64,000 nucleotides of DNA from contig NZ_CP157967.1 in NCBI RefSeq assembly GCF_040215725.1, forward strand, positions 2,232,001 to 2,296,000, given 5' to 3'. The notes beneath the pieces are model-generated. The model was given only the letters and a program-made list of their open reading frames with translations, was not told the DNA's origin and searched no databases. Within the stretch, counting starts at the first letter, position 1, and the number at the start of each line of letters is the position of its first letter. The translations under genes and the position numbers were made by a program. Below, in pieces: positions 45,446 through 56,863 of the stretch. This DNA comes from Rhizobium sp. ZPR4 (GTDB taxonomy: Bacteria > Pseudomonadota > Alphaproteobacteria > Rhizobiales > Rhizobiaceae).

Positions 45446-46441
45446 ATGACATTTCAAAGCAGTTCGCGTCTTTACGCTGCTGTTTCCTCCCTGCTGTGGC
45501 CCGCCATCTTCTGCGCCGGATTGACCGGTGCATATTTCGCCTTCGCGTCGAATATGCATCTACTCTGGTTCAACGTCGTCTATCTGTCGACAGTGGCGGT
45601 GATTGCCCTTTTCGAACGGTTGATGCCCTACGAGAAGACCTGGCAGAAGCGCGATGGCGAGACCTTCAACGATATTGCCCATACGCTGCTGAACAAGGGC
45701 GGCGTGCAGATCGCCGCTGCGATCGGCACCTCTTTCCCGATGGCCGTCGCGACGGTCGCGCAGCCGGCGCTAAGCTATCATTCGCATTTCTGGCCGGATC
45801 AATGGCCGATGGCGTTCCAGGTGGTACTCGGCCTCGTCGTTGCCGAATTCGGCCTCTACATGGCGCATCGCCTGGCGCACGAACATCTGTCGCTGTGGCG
45901 ATTCCACGCGCTGCATCACAGCGTCGAGCGTCTTTGGGTCATCAACACAGGCCGTTTCCACGTCATCGACACGCTGTTCAAGATCGCGCTCGGCCAGATC
46001 CCGCTCTACCTGCTTGGGGCGCCATTGCCGGTCTTCCTCTGGATCGGTGCGGTGACCGCCTTTATCGGTCTGCTCACACATTGTAACGTCGACATGCGCA
46101 CCGGCCCGCTCGACCTCATATTCTCAACACCTCGCCTCCATCGCTGGCATCATTCCAAGATTCTGGCCGAGGGAAATACGAATTATGGGGAAAACCTCGT
46201 GATCTGGGATCAGCTTCTCGGTACCTTCTACAACCCGCCGCGGCCGTCCTCGACCAATATCGGCATCACGGGCAAGGTGGCCAAGGGTTTCCTTGCCCAG
46301 CTCATGCAGCCCTTCTCCAGGACGGGCCGCAAGGAGATTATCGGCAAGAAGCCCAAGGAACTGATTCTCAAGGAAGAACAGGCGGCAAAAGCCGCCGCCG
46401 AAAGGCAACGCGCCGCCGCCTCGATGCGCAAATCGGGCTGA
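45446..46441 (+). CDS. sterol desaturase/fatty acid hydroxylase family protein
   Basis: A 331-residue inner-membrane di-iron oxygenase. The histidine clusters are HRLAHE, HALHHS, then HCNVD and HRWHHSK, with four to five membrane helices around them. Bacterial members hydroxylate ornithine lipids, sphingolipids, carotenoids or sterols. The C terminus is a charged helix (KEEQAAKAAAERQRAA). It is followed after 222 bp, same strand, by the large E1-KAS III fusion, so a shared lipid pathway is possible. Confidence 0.88.
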   Translation: MTFQSSSRLYAAVSSLLWPAIFCAGLTGAYFAFASNMHLLWFNVVYLSTVAVIALFERLMPYEKTWQKRDGETFNDIAHTLLNKGGVQIAAAIGTSFPMAVATVAQPALSYHSHFWPDQWPMAFQVVLGLVVAEFGLYMAHRLAHEHLSLWRFHALHHSVERLWVINTGRFHVIDTLFKIALGQIPLYLLGAPLPVFLWIGAVTAFIGLLTHCNVDMRTGPLDLIFSTPRLHRWHHSKILAEGNTNYGENLVIWDQLLGTFYNPPRPSSTNIGITGKVAKGFLAQLMQPFSRTGRKEIIGKKPKELILKEEQAAKAAAERQRAAASMRKSG

Positions 46442-46663: not shown

Positions 46664-49600
46664 ATGGAAGGGAGGTTTGCCACAGAATACCTTAAGCAAC
46701 TTCACAGAATATTTTTCATTTCCAGAGAAATAGATCGGCTTGAGCGAGAATTCATCAAGCAAGGAATAGCACATTTTCACGTTTCCGGCGCCGGTCACGA
46801 ATCCACGGCGCTTCTCAACGAATTCCTTCAGGACGACGACTGGCTGCATCTGCATTATCGCGACAAGGCCCTGATGCTGGCACGCGGAATGCCCATTCGT
46901 GAGTTCTTTTCCAGCCTGCTCGCGACAGCCAATTCGCATTCCGCCGGCCGGCAGATGAGCGCGCATCTATCCTCCCGCGCTCTCAACATCACCTCGATCG
47001 TCGGCCCCGTCGGCAACAATGCCTTGCACGCCGTCGGCGTAGCGGCATCCTTGAAGCACAAGCCCGGCATGCCGATCGCCATCTGTTGCGCCGGCGATGG
47101 CACCACTCAACAGGGCGAGTTCCTCGAAGCTGTGGCCGAGGCCGTGCGCAGCCAGTACCCCATCGTCTTCGTTATCGAGGACAATAGCTTCTCCATTTCA
47201 ACGCGTACGAGCAAGCAGACCTTCTTCGATCTGCCAGCCGGCCCGGCCTCTTCTTTCTATGGCATCGATATCATCCGCACGGATGGCGATGATCTCACCG
47301 CATCGCGCGACGCCTTCCGCAAGGCCGTCCGCCACAGCCGCAACAACCGCACGCCGAGCATCGTGCTTTTGAACGTCGAGCGCCTTTCCGACCACACCAA
47401 TGCCGACGATCAGAAGACCTATCGCACCCTGCTCGAAATCGAGGCCGGCTCCTCACGCGACCCGCTGCCGAACCTGCGGGCATTGCTGCAAAAGGCAGGT
47501 GTTGACGCCGATGCGCTTCAGAAGATCGAACAGGACCTGATTGCGGAAGTGCAGGCGGAAGCCGCTCTTGCCCGTAAGGAAGACGCCCCGAAGGTTGAGC
47601 CCGATGCAAAGGCTCCCTATCCCGCCTCGTTCGATGGCAAGGCGGAATATCGTGGCAACGAAAATGCATCGACGCTGACGATGCGCGAGGCGCTCAATGT
47701 CGTTCTCGACAAGCAGCTGGCCGCCAATCCCGAAGTCGTCCTGTTCGGTCAGGATATCGAGGATCCGAAGGGTGATGTCTTCGGCGTCACCCGCGGCCTC
47801 AGCACGAAATATCCCGACCGTGTGCACAACGCCGCTCTCACCGAATCGACAATCGTCGGCACCGCTGTCGGCCGCGCGCTGGCCGGCCAGCGTCCCGTCG
47901 CCTTCCTGCAATTCGCAGATTTCCTGCCACTCGCCTATAACCAGATCGTCTCGGAAATGGGCAGCATGTTCTGGCGCAGCAATGGCGCCTGGGAAGCACC
48001 CGTCATCCTGATGGTCAGCTGCGGCGGCTACAAGCCTGGCCTCGGCCCGTTCCATGCCCAGAGCTTCGAAGGGATGCTCGCGCATACGCCCGGCATCGAC
48101 GTCGTCATGCCCTCCAGCGCCGGCGATGCGGCAGGCTTGCTCAATGCCGCCTTCGAATCGCGGCGCCCGACGGTCTTCCTCTATCCGAAGGCTGTCCTCA
48201 ACAATTCCGATGGCCGCACCTCCGAGGATCTGGACAAGCATTTCGTCCATCCCGGCCTGTCGCGTCATGTCGCGCGCGGCCGCGACATCACGCTGGTCAG
48301 CTACGGCAACACCGTTTCGCTCTGCGCCAATGCCGCAAGCGCCTTCGAGGCCCAGGGCTTCTCCGTCGAGGTGATCGATCTGCGCTCGATCTCGCCCTGG
48401 GACGAGAAGGAAGTTCTGGCGAGCGCACGCCGCACCCGTCGTCTGATCGTCGTCCATGAAGACAACCGCACCGTCGGCATGGGCGCGGAAATTATCGCGA
48501 CCGTCACCGAAAAGACCGACGTGCCCGTCGTCGTGCGCAGGCTCGCCCGCTCGGACGCCCACATCCCCTTCAATTTCCGCAATCAGCTCGACACCCTGCC
48601 CTCCTACCGCAAGCTGGTCGACCTGATGGCCGAAGTGCTCGAATGCGAGGTGACCTGGCACGAAGAGGACGACAGCGGCCCGACGGCAGCCATCAAGGCG
48701 ATCGGCTCCGGTCCTGCCGACGAAAACGTGCTGGTGACGGATCTGCTCGTCAAGCCCGGCGACAAGATCGAGGTCGGCCAGCTCGTTGCTGTCGTAGAGG
48801 CGACGAAAGCCTCGGTCGAGATCTGCGCCAATATCGGCGGTGTCGTGCAGGAAGTCTTCGCCAAGATCGGCGACCAGATCGCCACCGACAGTCCGCTTCT
48901 GACCGTCGATGCCAATCGCGATCTGAGCGAGCAGAACTTCGCGCTCGCCTCCGAGATCCAGAACAAATTCGTGCTGCGGCGCCTGAAGTCGCATATCATC
49001 CCGACCCTGCGCCGCCATACCGGCAGCTTCTCCGAGATTGCCATCAACGGCATAGGCTTCGCCACCGGCGGCCGCCGCGTCACCAACGAAGAAATCATCC
49101 ACAACTGGCCGAACCGCCGCGCCGACGAGATTTTCGCACTGACCGGCATCAAGAGCCGCTTCTGGGTCGGCCCCGATGAAGGCACGCTGAGCCTTGCGAC
49201 GAAGGCAGCGCGCGATCTCCTCAAACAGAACCAGATGTCGATCCACGATGTCGATCTGGTGATCGCCGCCACCGGCACGCCCGATATTGCCACGCCGTCG
49301 CTCGCAAGCCGCGTCGCGGTTGCCGTCGCCGAAGATGGCGTGCGGCCGTCGCTGGCCGCCTATGACATGGGTGCCGCCTGCTCCGGTTATCTCTACGCCC
49401 TGCAGCAGGCTTATGATTTCATTGCCCAGCAGAACGACGCCAAGGTGCTCATCATCACCTCGGAAGTCCTGTCGCCACTGCTCGACATGAATGATTTCTC
49501 GACGGCGATCCTCTTCGGCGATGCTGCGACAGCCAGCCTCGTCACCAGTCGCGACATGGCCCGCAATCCGCTCTTCACCGCGAGCCGCCCGATCGTCAGC

Positions 49601-49987
49601 GGCCGGCCGGAACCGGGCGACCTGCTCTACGTTCCGCTGCCGGATGATGGCGTGATCGCCATGAACGGCCGCTCGGTCTTCACCGAAGCCGTACATTCGA
49701 TGACCCGCTCGATCGAAAACGCCTGCGTGGACGCGGGCATCGAGCTTGCCAATCTCGATCTCCTGGTGCCGCACCAGGCCAACCAGCGCATCATCGATAC
49801 GATTGCCAAACGCAGCGGCCGTCCGGCGCTGAGCGTCATCGAGACCTATGGCAACACCAGTTCTTCGAGCATTCCGCTTGCCATGCTGCACGTCGCCAAT
49901 GAACGCTCCGAACCGCTCAACCTCGGCCTCGTGGCCTTCGGCGGCGGCATGACGGCAGGTGCTGCAATCGTGCGAACCGTGAAGTAG
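46664..49987 (+). CDS. E1alpha-E1beta-lipoyl-KAS III fusion enzyme
   Basis: A 1107-residue multidomain enzyme with four parts. Residues 1-270 are a 2-oxoacid dehydrogenase E1-alpha domain with the TPP motif GDGTTQQGEF (144) to EDN (172-174). Residues about 335-655 are E1-beta with the TPP-activating Glu394 in ALTESTIVGTAVG. Residues about 685-750 are a lipoyl domain with acceptor Lys715 in VVEATKASVEI. Residues about 785-1107 are a ketoacyl-ACP synthase III with the complete triad Cys906 (GAACSGYLY), His1037 (VPHQANQRI) and Asn1064 (YGNTSSSS). Separate E2 and E3 genes are not nearby. The likely overall reaction is decarboxylation of a 2-keto acid, acyl transfer to the internal lipoyl arm, and condensation with malonyl-ACP; that linkage is inference. 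Confidence 0.9.
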   Translation: MEGRFATEYLKQLHRIFFISREIDRLEREFIKQGIAHFHVSGAGHESTALLNEFLQDDDWLHLHYRDKALMLARGMPIREFFSSLLATANSHSAGRQMSAHLSSRALNITSIVGPVGNNALHAVGVAASLKHKPGMPIAICCAGDGTTQQGEFLEAVAEAVRSQYPIVFVIEDNSFSISTRTSKQTFFDLPAGPASSFYGIDIIRTDGDDLTASRDAFRKAVRHSRNNRTPSIVLLNVERLSDHTNADDQKTYRTLLEIEAGSSRDPLPNLRALLQKAGVDADALQKIEQDLIAEVQAEAALARKEDAPKVEPDAKAPYPASFDGKAEYRGNENASTLTMREALNVVLDKQLAANPEVVLFGQDIEDPKGDVFGVTRGLSTKYPDRVHNAALTESTIVGTAVGRALAGQRPVAFLQFADFLPLAYNQIVSEMGSMFWRSNGAWEAPVILMVSCGGYKPGLGPFHAQSFEGMLAHTPGIDVVMPSSAGDAAGLLNAAFESRRPTVFLYPKAVLNNSDGRTSEDLDKHFVHPGLSRHVARGRDITLVSYGNTVSLCANAASAFEAQGFSVEVIDLRSISPWDEKEVLASARRTRRLIVVHEDNRTVGMGAEIIATVTEKTDVPVVVRRLARSDAHIPFNFRNQLDTLPSYRKLVDLMAEVLECEVTWHEEDDSGPTAAIKAIGSGPADENVLVTDLLVKPGDKIEVGQLVAVVEATKASVEICANIGGVVQEVFAKIGDQIATDSPLLTVDANRDLSEQNFALASEIQNKFVLRRLKSHIIPTLRRHTGSFSEIAINGIGFATGGRRVTNEEIIHNWPNRRADEIFALTGIKSRFWVGPDEGTLSLATKAARDLLKQNQMSIHDVDLVIAATGTPDIATPSLASRVAVAVAEDGVRPSLAAYDMGAACSGYLYALQQAYDFIAQQNDAKVLIITSEVLSPLLDMNDFSTAILFGDAATASLVTSRDMARNPLFTASRPIVSGRPEPGDLLYVPLPDDGVIAMNGRSVFTEAVHSMTRSIENACVDAGIELANLDLLVPHQANQRIIDTIAKRSGRPALSVIETYGNTSSSSIPLAMLHVANERSEPLNLGLVAFGGGMTAGAAIVRTVK

Positions 49988-50031: not shown

Positions 50032-50055
50032 CAGAGCGGCCAATTGGCCGCTCTG
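50032..50055 (+). terminator. terminator after the fusion gene
   Basis: A perfect 24-bp palindrome with arms CAGAGCGGCCAA and TTGGCCGCTCTG, followed by TTCGTTTCG, lies 45 bases past the fusion gene's stop. This is a likely Rho-independent terminator with an imperfect T run. The rest of 50056-50245 shows no recognised feature. Confidence 0.7.
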
Positions 50056-50245: not shown

Positions 50246-50734
50246 ATGGCTAAGGCACACGTACCAACGCACCGCTCTCGTCTGCGATACGATCTCGCTC
50301 CCGATGACGCAGCGCGGCAGGCTCTGGACGAGACCTTTGCCGCATACGGGCAGATGATGAAACTCCTGGCGGAAATCGTTCCGGATAAAGCCGGTGCGAA
50401 TCTCGTCACGCTTCATGATCTTGCCTATGAGACCATCCGCGAACGCACCGCTCTGCCCGCGCGCCTCGTAACGCTCGGCCTGCGTGATTTTGCGGCCACT
50501 CGAGGCGGGCTTGCCGATTGGAACCGGCTGCCGCTCGATGAAAAGCTCTTTGCCATCAAGGGTCCGTCAGACCTGACAATCTCGACGGTGCACGGCCGCA
50601 TTGCCGTGCCCTTCGATGTGGCCGGCTATTTCAAAGGCTGGGACAGCAATATCCCCGCCTATCTGATCGCCGATGGCGGCCACTACGCGATTCACATCGG
50701 GGTAACACCAAACTCTCCCCGAACGGAGGATAAC
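50246..50734 (+). other. TnpB-like N-terminal segment, in frame with PspA
   Basis: A 163-residue coding-like segment with no stop codon before the PspA start. It opens MAKAHVPTHRSRLRYDLAPD and contains YETIRERTALPARLVTLGLR and TISTVHGRIAVPFDVAGYFK, then AYLIADGGHYAIHIGV. These resemble the N-terminal helix bundle and beta-barrel (WED-like) parts of IS605-type TnpB/OrfB proteins. The RuvC nuclease and zinc-ribbon parts are absent. GC3-rich codons indicate selection as protein. Either it forms a 381-residue fusion with PspA, or it is a domesticated transposase remnant. Confidence 0.55.
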
Positions 50735-51391
50735 ATGACGATGCACGAAGGCATTCTTTCCCGCATGGGACGACTGATCGCAGGCCTCGCCAATGCCGCA
50801 GTCGACACCGTAGAAGGCGCCAACAAGGTCGCCGTCATCGAGCAGGCGCTGCGCGAGATCGATGCAGCCGCCGACGAGGCGCGTGCCGATCTCGGCAAGG
50901 CGCGCGCCGAAGAATACCGCATCCAGGCGCGACGCAACGAGATCGTCGAGGATCTCGACGCGCTTGAAGCAAAGATCCGGCTTGCGATCACGGCCGATCG
51001 CGAAGACCTCGCCAAGGCCGGCGTCGCGCGCCAGATCGACCTCGAAGCCCAGACCGCCGCGCTCGACAAGGCGCTGGCCGATGCAAACGCCCAGATCGAC
51101 GAAGGTCAGAAGGCGCTCCAGGCTGTCCTTGCGACCCGCCGCGAGGCGGAAGCACGCCTGATCGATTTCAAGCGCAGCGTTGCGCGCCATACGCCAGAGG
51201 AAGCGACCGGCGGACAGCCGCGACCGACGCCGGCAGCTGGCGCAGCCCGTGCGGCGGCTGCCGTCTCGCGGCTGACCGGCGTCCCTTCAGGCGAACCCTC
51301 AACCAGCGCCGAGCTCGATGAGCTCGACCGCCTGCACCGGGAGCAGGCCATCGAAGCACGCCTTGCCCGCTTCAAGGCCAATGGCCAGTAA
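50735..51391 (+). CDS. PspA/IM30-family membrane-stress protein
   Basis: A 218-residue coiled-coil protein of the PspA/Vipp1 (YjfJ-like) group. It opens MTMHEGILSRMGRLIAGLAN and continues in long heptad-rich helices (about residues 25-165). The C terminus is Ala/Pro-rich followed by a short charged helix. It probably binds stressed inner membrane. The start is set by CGGAGGA four bases upstream, with a second ATG two codons on; the reading frame is open further upstream into a TnpB-like segment. A yqiJ-like gene starts 3 bp after its stop. Confidence 0.85.
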   Translation: MTMHEGILSRMGRLIAGLANAAVDTVEGANKVAVIEQALREIDAAADEARADLGKARAEEYRIQARRNEIVEDLDALEAKIRLAITADREDLAKAGVARQIDLEAQTAALDKALADANAQIDEGQKALQAVLATRREAEARLIDFKRSVARHTPEEATGGQPRPTPAAGAARAAAAVSRLTGVPSGEPSTSAELDELDRLHREQAIEARLARFKANGQ

Positions 51392-51394
51392 CCG

Positions 51395-52048
51395 ATGCAC
51401 CTGTTTCTCGCACCCGAATGTGCGCCCTTTGCCATTGCGGCAATGATCCTGATTGGACTGACGGCAGTCGAAATCCTGTCGATGCTGCTCGGCTTCTCGC
51501 TGAGCGAACTCATCGGCAAACCGCATTTCGAAGGTCATGATGGTGTGCTCGCCGGCCTGCTCTCCTGGATCAACCTCGGCGGGGTGCCGCTGCTGATCCT
51601 GATCATGCTGGTGCTCGGCATCTTCGCCGTGGCGGGTTTTGCCATCCAGACGGTGGCCGACATCGTCTGGACGCCGCTGCCGGCGGTCGTCGCCACGGCT
51701 CCCGCGCTCCTCGTCACGATCCCCCTTGTCCGGGGCTCGACACGCACGATCGCAAGGATCGTGCCGCGCGATGAGACCTATGCCGTCGACACCGGCGACC
51801 TCGTTGGCCGCACCGGCACGGTTTCCATCGGCCCTCTGGATCAGGGCCTGCCCGGCCGCGTCAGCGTCAAGGACGCACATGGCAACTGGCATCAGCTGCG
51901 CGCCTGCGCCGCCAAGGGCGAAAGCCCCTTGCCGATCGGCGCCCAAGTTCTGCTTGTCGACCGCAAGGCCGACATCTTCATCGCAGTTTCCGCCCCCTCG
52001 GACCTTGTGAGGTCCGACGACAAATCCTCTACGGAGCAACATTCATGA
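51395..52048 (+). CDS. yqiJ: YqiJ-like membrane protein with OB-fold domain
   Basis: A 217-residue inner-membrane protein with about three N-terminal helices (to about residue 110) and a cytoplasmic NfeD-like OB-fold domain (DLVGRTGTVSIGPLDQGLPG, GAQVLLVDRKADIFIAV). YqiJ-type proteins pair with flotillins and organise membrane microdomains. It is tightly packed, 3 bp after pspA and overlapping yqiK by 4 bp (ATGA). Confidence 0.87.
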   Translation: MHLFLAPECAPFAIAAMILIGLTAVEILSMLLGFSLSELIGKPHFEGHDGVLAGLLSWINLGGVPLLILIMLVLGIFAVAGFAIQTVADIVWTPLPAVVATAPALLVTIPLVRGSTRTIARIVPRDETYAVDTGDLVGRTGTVSIGPLDQGLPGRVSVKDAHGNWHQLRACAAKGESPLPIGAQVLLVDRKADIFIAVSAPSDLVRSDDKSSTEQHS

Positions 52049-53763
52049 ACGGCCTTTACGACCTTATTCTTCCAGCAGGCATAGGTCTCGTCCTGATCCT
52101 CGGGATCGGCTTCGTCCTTGCCTCGCTCTACGTTCGCTCGAGCCGCGATGAAGCCTATGTGCGCACCGGTCTCGGCGGCCAGAAAGTCGTGCTCGACGGC
52201 GGTTCCGTCGTCCTGCCGATCTTCCACTCGATCGCCCGCGTCAATCTCAAGACCCTGCGCCTGGAAGTCCAGCGCGGCGAGAATGATGCGCTGATCACCA
52301 AGGACCGCATGCGCGTCGATATCGGCGCCGAGTTCTATGTCCGCGTCAAGCCGGACAGCTCATCGATCGCGCTTGCTGCCCAGACGCTCGGCAACCGCAC
52401 CAACGACAGCGAGCAGCTGCGCCAGCTGATCGAGGCGAAGTTCGTCGACAGCTTGCGCTCGGTCGCAGCCACGATGAGCCTCGATGCCTTGCAGGAGCAG
52501 CGCATGGATTTCGTCAAGGCCGTGCAGGATGCAGTCGGTTCCGACCTGCAGTCCAACGGTCTCGAATTGGAATCCGTGTCGCTGACGCGCCTCGACCAGA
52601 CCGATATCAAGCATTTCAACGCCAACAACTTCTTCGACGCCCATGGTCTTGCCGCGCTGACCCGCGTCACCGAGGCCCGCAAGAAGGAGCGTAACGAGGT
52701 CGTCCGCGACACCGAAGTCGCGATCGCTCAGAAGGACCTTGAAGCCCGCCAGCAGTCCCTCACGATCGAGCGGACGAAACGCGAGGCCGAGCTGAACCAG
52801 CAGCGCGACATCGCCAACAAGTCGGCCGCAACTCGCGCCGAAACCGCGCAGCAGGAACAGGCGGCCAAGCGTGCCGAAGAGGAAGCCCGCATCGCCGCCG
52901 AGCAAGCGATCGCCGAACGCGAGGCTGCCGCAAAGCAGGCCCGCGAATCCGCCAACATCGACTCGACCCGTGCCGTGCAGCAGCGCGATACCGAAGCCCG
53001 CCGCGACATTCAGATCGTCGCCCAGGAAAGCGCCATCGCGGTCTCCAACAAGAGCCGTGAGGAGTCGGAAGCCAAGGCGAAGGCAGAGGCGGCCCGCGCA
53101 CTCGCCATCGCCGCCGAAGAAAAGGTCGGCACTGCGCGAGCAGTCGAAATTGCCGACCGTGAAAAGCAGATCGCCGTGATCGACGCGCAGAAGCGCGCCC
53201 AGACCCAGGCAACCGCTGTCACCATCGCCGCAGAAGCTGAAAAGCAGGCAGCGACCGACCAAGCGGATGCGATCAAGACGCTGGCAACGGCAGAAGCCGA
53301 CGCCGCAATCATCAAGGCCAAGGGTATTCTGGAAACCGGTAAGGCGACGGCCGAAAGCGAAGCGCTGCTCAACGAAGCACGCAACAAGCTGAGCCCCGCG
53401 ATCATCGAATTCGAGATCACTCGCGAGCGCATCCGCATCGTGCCCGCCGCCCTCGCCGAAGCGGTCAAGCCAATCGAGAAGATCTCGGACATCCGCATCT
53501 TCGACACCGGCGGCATGCTCGGCCGCAATGGCAACGGTACGGGCGGCGGAAGTGGCGTCGGCCTTGGCGAAGGTCTTGCCGGCCAGCTACTCTCCTACCA
53601 GGCCAACAAACCGATCCTCGACCGCCTGCTGAAGGAAGCCGGCTTCGATGGCGACAATGCCATCTCGGCGCTGCTTGGCAATCTTGATGGCAAGACCAAC
53701 GCTGCCCAGCCCGAGGAAGAGGAATATTACGACGACACCGAAGAGACGGATAAGCCTGCCTAA
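52045..53763 (+). CDS. yqiK: flotillin-family protein YqiK
   Basis: A 572-residue flotillin. It has an N-terminal membrane helix (about residues 6-30), an SPFH/PHB domain (ALITKDRMRVDIGAEFYVRV, LQEQRMDFVKAVQDAVGSDL) and a long Ala/Glu/Lys-rich coiled coil at about residues 200-450. A Gly-rich stretch and an acidic tail (EEEEYYDDTEETDKPA) end the protein. It probably scaffolds membrane microdomains with YqiJ. It is the last gene of the operon, followed by a strong terminator. Confidence 0.92.
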   Translation: MNGLYDLILPAGIGLVLILGIGFVLASLYVRSSRDEAYVRTGLGGQKVVLDGGSVVLPIFHSIARVNLKTLRLEVQRGENDALITKDRMRVDIGAEFYVRVKPDSSSIALAAQTLGNRTNDSEQLRQLIEAKFVDSLRSVAATMSLDALQEQRMDFVKAVQDAVGSDLQSNGLELESVSLTRLDQTDIKHFNANNFFDAHGLAALTRVTEARKKERNEVVRDTEVAIAQKDLEARQQSLTIERTKREAELNQQRDIANKSAATRAETAQQEQAAKRAEEEARIAAEQAIAEREAAAKQARESANIDSTRAVQQRDTEARRDIQIVAQESAIAVSNKSREESEAKAKAEAARALAIAAEEKVGTARAVEIADREKQIAVIDAQKRAQTQATAVTIAAEAEKQAATDQADAIKTLATAEADAAIIKAKGILETGKATAESEALLNEARNKLSPAIIEFEITRERIRIVPAALAEAVKPIEKISDIRIFDTGGMLGRNGNGTGGGSGVGLGEGLAGQLLSYQANKPILDRLLKEAGFDGDNAISALLGNLDGKTNAAQPEEEEYYDDTEETDKPA

Positions 53764-53845: not shown

Positions 53846-54691
53846 TCAGGGCTTCGGGCGATTTCTGAAGGCCTCGGCCTCGGCGTAGAACTTCTTTTCC
53901 CATTCCTTGTGATTGTCGAGGCCTTCCTTGATGAAGGGCGTGAAGATCGCCAGATTCATCAAGGCCCAGTTGACGAAGCGGGCCGGGAATTTCAGCGGCT
54001 TGACGAAATCGACGAAGAGCACGACGCGGGTCTTGTCGGAATGGTTCCAGGCTTCATGCTCATAGGCATCGTCGAAGATCAGCGCCTTGCCTTCCTGCCA
54101 GTGGCAAACCTGCTTGTCGACGCGGATCGCGAGCTTCTCGTTCGGCTCAGGCACGATGAGGCCGAGATGCAGGCGCAGCACGCCGTTATAAGGACCACGG
54201 TGGGCCGGAAGATGCTTGCCCGGCTCGAAGATCGAGAACATCGCCGTCGTCAGACCGGGGATCTTCTGCACGGCTTTCCAGGTATTCGGGCATGCATTGA
54301 TGTTCTGCTCGGACTTCACGCCGAAGCCAAGAAGGAAAAAGGTCTTCCAGCGGGTATCAGTCGAAATGGTCTTCACGTCGGTGGAGATATCCTGGAAGGT
54401 CGGCAGCTCGCTCTGGCGCAGCAACACCTTCTCTAACTCGGCGCGGATGGCGGGAAAATCCTTCTCGATCTCGGCCGCCCAGGGGAAGGTCGCGGTGTCA
54501 TAGACCGGCGGATTACCAAGCTTGGCATATTTCAGATTGAGACTTTCCGCCCAAGAAACGATGCCCATGAAGAAGCGCGTCATGGCGCTCGGGCGATCCA
54601 TCGGCGCGATGCCAGCCGTGCCGAAAGTCTGTTCCGGAGCAGGAGATTGGTTGGAAGTGGGAGCAGGTGCGCTCAAGGGACTCTCCGTCAT
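53846..54691 (-). CDS. aspartyl/asparaginyl beta-hydroxylase-like lipid hydroxylase (LpxO/OlsC type)
   Basis: A 281-residue Fe(II)/2-oxoglutarate oxygenase. Iron-site residues are in LPAHRGPYNGVLRLHLGLIV and FDDAYEHEAWNHSDKTRVVL. Close families are LpxO, which 2-hydroxylates lipid A acyl chains, and rhizobial OlsC, which hydroxylates ornithine lipids; the two cannot be separated here. A hydrophobic segment near the C terminus (FVNWALMNLAIFTPFI) suggests membrane association. Confidence 0.87.
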   Translation of the reverse strand: MTESPLSAPAPTSNQSPAPEQTFGTAGIAPMDRPSAMTRFFMGIVSWAESLNLKYAKLGNPPVYDTATFPWAAEIEKDFPAIRAELEKVLLRQSELPTFQDISTDVKTISTDTRWKTFFLLGFGVKSEQNINACPNTWKAVQKIPGLTTAMFSIFEPGKHLPAHRGPYNGVLRLHLGLIVPEPNEKLAIRVDKQVCHWQEGKALIFDDAYEHEAWNHSDKTRVVLFVDFVKPLKFPARFVNWALMNLAIFTPFIKEGLDNHKEWEKKFYAEAEAFRNRPKP

Positions 54692-55402: not shown

Positions 55403-56773
55403 TCAAACCTTTTCGATCTTATGGATATTTTCCCGCCGCGTCTCCACGCCGCGTTCGCGAATATGGCGAAGTGGCATATCGGCCGGGATATCTCCCGAGG
55501 CCGCGCTCTTGGCGATGCCGAGCCGCTGCGACAGATAGATGCTGGTATGGCCGCTGCAGATATAGGCAAGGAAGCAGGCGACGGCAAGGTAGACGGTATG
55601 CGTCGCGCCGAAAAGCTCGATGCCCATGATCATGCAGGCAAGCGGCGTATTGGTGGCACCGGCAAAGACGGCGACGAAACCCAACCCCGCGAAGAGATCG
55701 GCCGGCGCGCCGAGAATGGCCGCAAGTGCATTGCCGAGCGCAGCACCGATGAAGAACAAGGGCGTCACTTCTCCGCCCTTGAAGCCGGCACTTAATGTCA
55801 CGATCGTGAAGGCAGCTTTCCAGAACCAGCTCCAATAATCGACATGAGCGGGATCGAAGAAGCCAAGGATCGTCGCATCCCCAGGATTGGGTGACCACAC
55901 GCCGAGCCCGAGATACTCGCGCGTGCCGAGAAGATAGACGAGACCGATCAAGATCGTGCTGGCGATGACCGGCCTGAGCGGCGCATAGGCGCAGAACCAC
56001 TTGAATGCGGCCGATGCGGCATGCGAGACCTCGCTGAACGAGCGCGCCATCAGGCCGAAGATCACACCGGCAATGCCGACCTTGATGAGCAGCAGCGCAT
56101 CGAGATGGAAGGTGCTGGCTGGCGTCCCTGCGAGATAACCGATCTTATACTGGATATGCTCGATGCCCCAGGCATGGCAGGTCCAGTCAGCGGCGATCGC
56201 TGCCGCAAGGCTCGGGATCAGAGCCTCATATTGCATCCGTCCGATCGTCAGGACTTCGAGGGCGAAAACGGCGCCGGCGATCGGCGTGCCGAAGACTGCG
56301 CCGAAGCCCGCGGCGATACCCGCCATGAGGAGAATGCGGACTTCGGCATGACTGAGACGGAACACCTTTGCAAAAGCGCTGGCAATGCTGCCGCCAAGCT
56401 GCACCGCCGTCCCTTCACGCCCGGCAGAACCGCCAACCAGATGCGTCAGGACCGTCGAGACCAGGATGAAAGGTGCCATGCGCAGCGGCACACCGCCGCC
56501 GGGCTCATGGATCTGGTCGACGATCAGATTGTTACCACCCTCAGATCCGCGGCCGAAGTGCTGGTAAACCAGCACCATCAGGAAACCGGCAACCGGCATC
56601 AGGAAGATCAGCCAGGGATGGTCGAAGCGCGTCTCAGTCGCCCGGTCGAGACCCCACAGGAACAGGGCGCAGAGCGAGCCGACCACGGCCGCCATCGGGA
56701 CGACGAGAGCTATCCACTTGAACAGACTGCGAAATTGTTGAAAGCGATGATGAAAATATGCAGATGCGGACAT
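55403..56773 (-). CDS. CLC-F type fluoride/proton antiporter
   Basis: A 456-residue CLC-superfamily membrane protein. It has [12 protein letters not shown] (Glu about residue 120) where chloride CLCs have GREGP, and [16 protein letters not shown] at the N-terminal selectivity region, both features of the fluoride-exporting CLC-F subclass. It pairs with crcB, reinforcing the fluoride role. The ATG at 56773 follows GGGAGGGG; the in-frame ATG at 56803 does not have a site. Confidence 0.9.
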
Positions 56774-56863
56774 TAGTTTGCCCCTCCCGCGAAGCCGGTA
56801 CACGGTCTTGCGGGGACAGTGGATAGGAAAGATGAGTGGGATGACGGTAAGAAAACACGCACG

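Follow-up and report, generated by a model that had tools for sequence, protein, structure and literature searches.

A gene of Rhizobium sp. ZPR4 joins both halves of the first enzyme (E1) of a 2-oxo acid dehydrogenase, a lipoyl domain and a ketosynthase of the beta-ketoacyl-ACP synthase III (KAS III) type on a single chain of 1107 amino acids. It lies at 46664..49987 on the + strand of the window, that is, the whole stretch of 64,000 nucleotides analysed here (contig NZ_CP157967.1, positions 2,232,001 to 2,296,000). The fusion is probably a lipoyl-primed ketosynthase, which would turn 2-oxo acids into beta-ketoacyl-ACP (ACP, acyl carrier protein) without passing through coenzyme A (CoA) and would be accessory to the ordinary KAS III, FabH. 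In effect, it may channel 2-oxo acid carbon directly into lipid synthesis. Loading of the KAS III part from the lipoyl arm is supported by four observations: an E1-lipoyl chassis shared with chains in which an acyltransferase (E2) sits where KAS III sits here, loss of the residues that clamp CoA in FabH, co-occurrence of the KAS III and E1 parts across genomes, and a segment resembling the E1 protein AceE in KAS III proteins that have become separate from the fusion.

Domain organization and catalytic residues

The chain begins with an E1-alpha domain (E1_dh, residues 18-311; 46715..47596, +), whose thiamine diphosphate (ThDP) motif, GDG at 144-146 with Asn174, and loop His244 were assigned by conservation and by alignment to the E1-alpha chains of 1um9 and 1dtw. 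This is followed by the pyrimidine-binding domain of E1-beta (Transket_pyr, residues 337-512; 47672..48199, +), with Glu394 and His464, and by its C-terminal domain (Transketolase_C, residues 535-637; 48266..48574, +). All three are above the Pfam cut-offs. Among the fusion sequences, Glu394 is kept in 126 of 126 and His464 in 125 of 126, and Asn174 and His244 are invariant in 38. The lipoyl domain (residues 687-747; 48722..48904, +) is matched best by its counterpart in planctomycete E1-lipoyl-E2 chains. Its motif, EATKA, is of the lipoyl type and not the MKM of biotin carriers, and the predicted lipoylation site, Lys715 (codon at 48806..48808, +), is a lysine in 126/126. Finally, a KAS III fold occupies residues 788-1105 (49025..49978, +) and contains the full Cys-His-Asn triad: the nucleophile Cys906 (49379..49381, +), His1037 (49772..49774, +) and Asn1064 (49853..49855, +). 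The structure comparison list for the fusion is taken up by KAS III and speaks for that part only.

The protein searches behind these counts scored 8000 candidates, and the figures rest on the best 120 matches listed (86 in one further search). The sets of 126 and 147 sequences used here are unthinned and come mostly from such best 120 matches; a length filter had removed two of 149 before the KAS III residues were counted.

The first-pass annotation of this DNA had described one intact frame of 1107 codons with these four parts and no sign of decay. Both points hold. In profile searches, the E1, lipoyl and KAS III parts each matched their families, and the catalytic residues are near-invariant across relatives, which excludes a decayed fusion. 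The domain scan of the chain reported neither a PF00198 E2 acyltransferase domain, nor any second acyltransferase hidden there, nor a peripheral-subunit-binding domain.

The best NCBIfam model for the fusion is beta-ketoacyl-ACP synthase 3 (PRK09352), with 236 bits, just below its cut-off of 249, and TIGR00747 gives 193.2 bits against a cut-off of 292.1. Judged by its sequence, the C-terminal part is KAS III-like and not a canonical FabH.

An antisense open frame of 812 codons (47453-49891, -) spans most of the gene and is probably a mechanical shadow of the coding bias of the sense frame.

Distribution of the fusion

A survey for the same architecture found it in several phyla, so that the fusion is not unique to Rhizobium sp. 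ZPR4. Relatives that span the full length are found in Rhizobium (the tropici/rhizogenes group), Devosia, Tabrizicola/Rhodobacter, Planctomycetota and Verrucomicrobiota, and their presence in many genomes excludes a chance open reading frame (ORF), a frameshift artefact or an assembly join. Source databases label these relatives as a thiamine pyrophosphate-dependent enzyme, a 2-oxoisovalerate dehydrogenase or a beta-ketoacyl-ACP synthase 3; the fusion proteins form an unnamed family. Among the openly licensed papers searched, none of those listed describes the fusion by title or abstract opening, from which its absence from print does not follow.

Genome counts are lower bounds, as two to three candidates were scored per genome for the long query, and they include the seed genomes G001 and G002, which were picked for carrying the fusion. 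At least one of 199 sampled genomes of the host's family and at least one of 289 of its class have the fusion, the ZPR4 genome in both cases; three further genomes of the class match the query in an unfused E1 only. It is present in at least three of 294 genomes of Planctomycetota (G001, G409 and G540, the last covered from 12 to 1106) and in at least 25 of 240 genomes of Verrucomicrobiota, where 23 matches are nearly full-length and two (G706 and G644) are partial. The fusion-type KAS III and the E1 part co-occur in the identical 25 of these 240 genomes. Frames of at least 715 codons were found in 24 of them, and in G706 the parts lie on separate contigs.

A dehydrogenase chassis shared with E2-fused chains

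The nearest relatives of the fusion in both E1 and lipoyl parts are single chains with the same order of E1-alpha, E1-beta and lipoyl domains, whose C-terminus is a PF00198 acyltransferase, whereas that of the fusion is KAS III. They were found through the E1 search, as long chains whose match ended before the KAS III part. Ten of the 11 scanned, from Planctomycetota (L116-L119 and L121) and Verrucomicrobiota (L163-L167), carry E1-alpha, E1-beta, lipoyl and the E2 catalytic domain. The eleventh, the planctomycete chain L120, has a frame broken after E1 and an unconfirmed E2 part, and is counted among the 11 E2-fused rows of the trees. Such single-chain E1-lipoyl-E2 proteins are a compact dehydrogenase format; a peripheral-subunit-binding domain was not reported in the ten.

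In a 35-row E1 tree, a single clade (support 100/100) unites the KAS III-fused chains, and the planctomycete E2-fused chains are nearest to it (98/96). The verrucomicrobial E2-fused chains and an unfused E1, L122, fall outside, and the group as a whole is again supported at 100/100. A quick tree of 85 rows agrees. In addition, 45 of 45 usable lipoyl domains from fusions score best with those of planctomycete E2-fused chains. In that comparison, two of 47 KAS chains had no usable motif window, L120 was not used, and five of ten lipoyl/biotinyl controls from the ZPR4 genome count, as L053, L055, L056, L057 and L065 had been read on the wrong strand. From the E1 tree and the lipoyl scores, the two kinds of chain therefore correspond as far as the lipoyl domain, and what sets them apart is the unit that would unload it: an E2 acyltransferase in one and, it appears, KAS III in the other, in the same seat.

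The ZPR4 genome encodes a second fused E1-alpha/E1-beta (L075, at C2:464472), a 708-codon frame without KAS III. An E2 gene lies about 1.6 kb past its E1-alpha match, and in the 85-row quick tree it stands far outside the group of KAS- and E2-fused chains.

Loss of the CoA clamp in the KAS III domain

According to a passage of PMC4606726, the adenine of CoA in FabH is sandwiched by Trp32 and Arg151, with Arg36 and Thr28 nearby. In 147 fusion KAS III domains, these positions were compared with those of E. coli FabH and of 20 stand-alone KAS III enzymes encoded in the ZPR4 genome and ten fusion-bearing genomes (L104, a match below the cut-off, was left out). Position 32 is Asp or Glu in 132 of the 147 and Trp in none (Glu822 in ZPR4; 49127..49129, +), while Trp is found in 13 of 20 stand-alone enzymes. 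Likewise, position 151, the other face of the clamp, is Phe in 118/147 and never Arg (Phe945 in ZPR4; 49496..49498, +), against Arg in 14/20. Position 36 is Leu in 99/147, and Arg in 13/20 of the stand-alone set.

By contrast with this CoA side, the condensing chemistry is kept. In E. coli numbering, the equivalents of Cys112 and Asn274 are retained in 147/147 and those of His244 and Arg249 in 146/147; Arg1042 (the Arg249 equivalent, an arginine of the ACP side) and the glycines at 305-307 are retained in 146-147/147, and basic residues prevail at positions 256/257. The position of E. coli Phe87 is Thr in 143/147 and Ser in 4/147. In the part of PMC3734052 that deals with this residue, Phe87 restricts E. 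coli FabH to acetyl, and Thr at this place in the FabH of Mycobacterium tuberculosis accompanies longer acyl groups. The pattern reads as that of a KAS III whose ACP side and condensing chemistry are kept, whose CoA side has been lost and whose acyl pocket would be enlarged.

A freed KAS III branch with an AceE-like N-terminus

In a search with the KAS III part only, the best 120 of 5489 matches were examined, and 73 of these 120 align in the KAS part only. Judging from the sizes and names of their contigs, many appear to be fragments at contig ends or internal gene calls. A freed branch, without the E1-lipoyl part, comprises P0200, P0210 and P0188, together with P0241, P0242 and P0244 from a further search. 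All six have an extra N-terminal stretch, about 36 residues of which match residues 6-41 of E. coli AceE. For instance, P0200 matches the peptide 9h1n_C of the PDB with E 6e-6 and full AceE chains with E 4e-4, and a profile of the six sequences, run with a database size of 177635, matches AceE with E 5e-6, where the best of 2000 shuffled AceE sequences gave E 63. In AceE, this segment binds the E1 of pyruvate dehydrogenase (E1p) to the E2 core; 9h1n is identified here by chain name only.

In a KAS III tree, which leaves out P0244, STD_L105 and STD_L108, stand-alone FabH is separated from a single group that holds the fused, freed and lone forms of this KAS III (97/95). The freed branch is nested in the fused clade, beside a planctomycete fusion (98/87). 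The CoA clamp is missing in all six freed proteins. Having no arm of their own, descending from the fusion and bearing an AceE-like segment, they seem to have acquired an E1-type handle for the lipoyl arm of another protein.

Two odd unions were seen among the matches: a transposase-type domain (PF01609) joined to the AceE-like KAS III in P0242, and a peptidase M15 domain joined to a lipoyl-KAS III in P0131. Both may be gene-call or assembly joins.

Proposed reaction

From these features we infer a course of reaction that extends from the substrate to the physiological role. In the E1-alpha and E1-beta parts, decarboxylation of a 2-oxo acid on ThDP would be followed by reductive acylation of the lipoyl group that Lys715 carries further along the chain. 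The arm, now in its acyl-dihydrolipoyl form, would then swing into KAS III, seated where the E2 acyltransferase sits in the sister chains, and Cys906 would accept the acyl group from it. His1037 and Asn1064 would then drive its decarboxylative condensation with a malonyl donor, most likely malonyl-ACP, so that a beta-ketoacyl-ACP forms and acyl-CoA is never an intermediate. Reoxidation of the arm would fall to a separate cellular E3 (dihydrolipoyl dehydrogenase). A starter larger than acetyl is probable, such as the acyl group of a branched or longer 2-oxo acid, and the enzyme would feed a specialised lipid. The first-pass annotation had already proposed a CoA-free module of this kind. Its idea of loading from the arm is now backed by sequence evidence, while the malonyl-ACP acceptor, the beta-ketoacyl-ACP product, the 2-oxo acid and the reoxidiser of the arm stay at the level of proposal.

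If this is correct, 2-oxo acids can enter fatty acid or polyketide synthesis without ever being acyl-CoA, with priming channelled inside one protein, and a lipoyl arm, which normally serves an acyltransferase, can serve an enzyme that forms carbon-carbon bonds. Unusual lipids would be predicted in Rhizobium, Devosia, Verrucomicrobiota and Planctomycetota, and the fusion would provide a ready-made starter module for branched or odd chains. A broader proposal, which we regard as evenly balanced between true and false, is that of a class of lipoyl-primed ketosynthases, all making carbon-carbon bonds off the arm of a 2-oxo acid dehydrogenase. Its main form would stem from the exchange of E2 for KAS III in an E1-lipoyl-E2 chain. 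A second, freed form would dock on the E2 core of pyruvate dehydrogenase by its AceE-type N-terminus and tap the acetyl arm there in competition with CoA.

Evidence against and alternative explanations

Several observations weigh against the lipoyl-primed ketosynthase or parts of its history. In approximately unbiased (AU) tests, a single clade of the 11 E2-fused rows was rejected (p 4e-6), but the KAS-fused clade as sister to a group of all E2-fused chains and L122 was not firmly rejected (p 0.066); because of this difference, nesting is favoured and sisterhood is possible, and a literal replacement of E2 by KAS III appears likely but is not forced. The Trp32/Arg151 pair is also missing in other KAS III paralogues (L003, L103, L106 and L107), and clamp loss therefore argues against canonical CoA use and not specifically for lipoyl; moreover, Arg36 is still present in 37/147 fusions. 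The freed branch was not found in the 294 Planctomycetota and 240 Verrucomicrobiota genomes searched. Two stand-alone relatives of Isosphaeraceae type (P0196 and P0231) have neither a lipoyl domain nor an AceE-like segment, and other KAS-only matches on long contigs (e.g., P0166, P0168, P0190, P0206 and P0214) may be either truly stand-alone proteins or internal gene calls. No pathway gene is consistently linked to the fusion among the loci examined, and the AlphaFold prediction is of a single chain. Lastly, the four E2 enzymes encoded elsewhere in the ZPR4 genome could unload the lipoyl arm in trans.

In one unlikely alternative, the fusion is one of convenience: its E1-lipoyl part and separate E2 and E3 would make acyl-CoA, which KAS III would then use in the manner of FabH. 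Branched-chain FabH routes via acyl-CoA are the known norm, the E1 and lipoyl domains look functional, and the genome has four E2 and five Pyr_redox_dim matches. However, the Trp32/Arg151 clamp is missing in 147/147. Nor is it obvious how the chain would dock on a foreign E2, since its domain scan reported no peripheral-subunit-binding domain, and the sister chains bear an E2 of their own at the same place. The E1-type N-terminus of the freed branch would also be pointless if soluble CoA were used.

A second alternative, to which we likewise give little credence, accepts loading from the arm but not malonyl condensation: the acyl group would be passed to ACP, an alcohol or an amine, or condensed with another beta-keto acid. 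KAS III relatives with other chemistry do exist, CerJ being one example. Another is PqsD, which condenses with a beta-keto acid according to a passage of PMC3734052, and the fusion has no conserved partner gene. Against this stands the near-complete retention (146-147/147) of His1037, Asn1064, Arg1042 and the glycines at 305-307, the set to be expected for decarboxylative condensation, as well as the beta-ketoacyl-ACP synthase 3 model being the best match in NCBIfam.

The remaining alternative is very improbable. In it, E1 would use a ketose phosphate or another donor, as QncN/QncL do for a glycolyl unit, and a secondary metabolite would be built on the resulting starter of hydroxyacetyl type. 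The domain set of QncN/QncL (ThDP, pyrimidine, transketolase-C, lipoyl and acyltransferase; PMC6335953) is close in kind to that of the sister chains. However, the structures that E1-alpha and E1-beta of the fusion match best are those of E1 enzymes for 2-oxo acids and branched-chain substrates (1um9, 1ik6, 1qs0 and 1dtw), and neither the neighbours scanned in this window nor a selection of those at other loci show an evident biosynthetic cluster.

Comparison with known systems

CoA-free priming of carrier proteins from dehydrogenase-like chains is already a known idea, and the ketosynthase in the seat of the acyltransferase is the new element. A metagenome enzyme of Craig and Brady (2011) reportedly converts branched-chain 2-oxo acids to branched-chain acyl-ACP, with transfer by an E2-like acyltransferase. 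Like the lipoyl-primed ketosynthase proposed here, it goes from 2-oxo acid to acyl carrier protein and bypasses acyl-CoA, but that chain is not known to have a ketosynthase or to form a carbon-carbon bond. Acyl-lipoate is among the donors in the review passage that cites this enzyme (PMC8762209). QncN/QncL/QncM and SclQ1-4 supply a glycolicacyl unit (PMC6335953), and the pepteridine pathway has an E1-like protein and an E2-nonribosomal peptide synthetase (NRPS) fusion, for which the host E3 is invoked (PMC5384830). In these systems, too, direct priming of a carrier protein has been taken over by parts of dehydrogenase type, namely an E1-like part and a lipoyl or E2-like one. On the acceptor side, however, they have an acyltransferase or an NRPS condensation domain, on separate chains and in natural-product clusters, and the passages on them name no KAS III. 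The carrier-priming dehydrogenases, such as QncL and the Craig-Brady enzyme, combine lipoyl with an acyltransferase, which was not found in the fusion; the likeness is functional only.

Compared with FabH, the fusion has lost the CoA adenine clamp, has a smaller residue at position 87 and is joined to E1-lipoyl. With the alpha2beta2 E1 of branched-chain 2-oxo acid dehydrogenase and pyruvate dehydrogenase, it shares the alpha and beta folds, the ThDP motif, the E1-beta Glu and His and the E1-alpha loop His. Unlike them, it has alpha and beta on one chain, the lipoyl domain in cis, and an E1-alpha pocket that reads HYRDK instead of QYREA/YYRDH. A comparison of E1 pocket residues for the substrate gave no decisive answer.

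Genomic context

A stand-alone FabH-type match (117-129 bits) is present in 10/10 fusion-bearing genomes, which excludes the fusion as the housekeeping chain starter. Of the five Pyr_redox_dim proteins of the ZPR4 genome, three are encoded close to E2 genes, at distances of up to about 4 kb. E3 is commonly shared, so the lack of a fused E3 is a smaller obstacle, and E3 activity is presumably available in the host cell.

Neighbours vary between groups. A search for fabI, fabD, fabG and plsX in 73 loci found fabI (enoyl-ACP reductase) beside the fusion in two Rhodobacter-type loci only, in divergent orientation (L041, 8704-9807, -; L044, 8704-9537, -), which is weak support; four FabG matches, at 28-32% identity, may be any short-chain dehydrogenase/reductase (SDR). 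Recurrent neighbours in other groups include PtsP-like, ammonium transporter, radical SAM, PBP and RNase E/G genes, and an apolipoprotein N-acyltransferase-like gene lies near the fusion in two loci.

In the window, the fusion starts about 220 bp past an ornithine lipid hydroxylase gene, olsE (45446-46441, +; NCBIfam 563 bits), whose ORF family recurs at 29 of the 49 related loci. A second such gene, olsC (53846-54691, -), lies downstream, near a gene of the voltage-gated chloride channel (CLC) family (55406-56803, -). The pair of olsC and CLC is linked to acid tolerance in R. tropici. Contexts differ in other fusion-bearing groups, and a link of the fusion to ornithine lipids is possible but not claimed. 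Past the fusion stop, a terminator-like hairpin with a 10 bp stem (50032..50055, +) is a consensus match only, one of 6 such sites in the region against 3.1 expected by chance; the fusion gene may end its own transcript there. A tight row of PspA-like, YqiJ-like and flotillin genes follows downstream (50246-53763, +).

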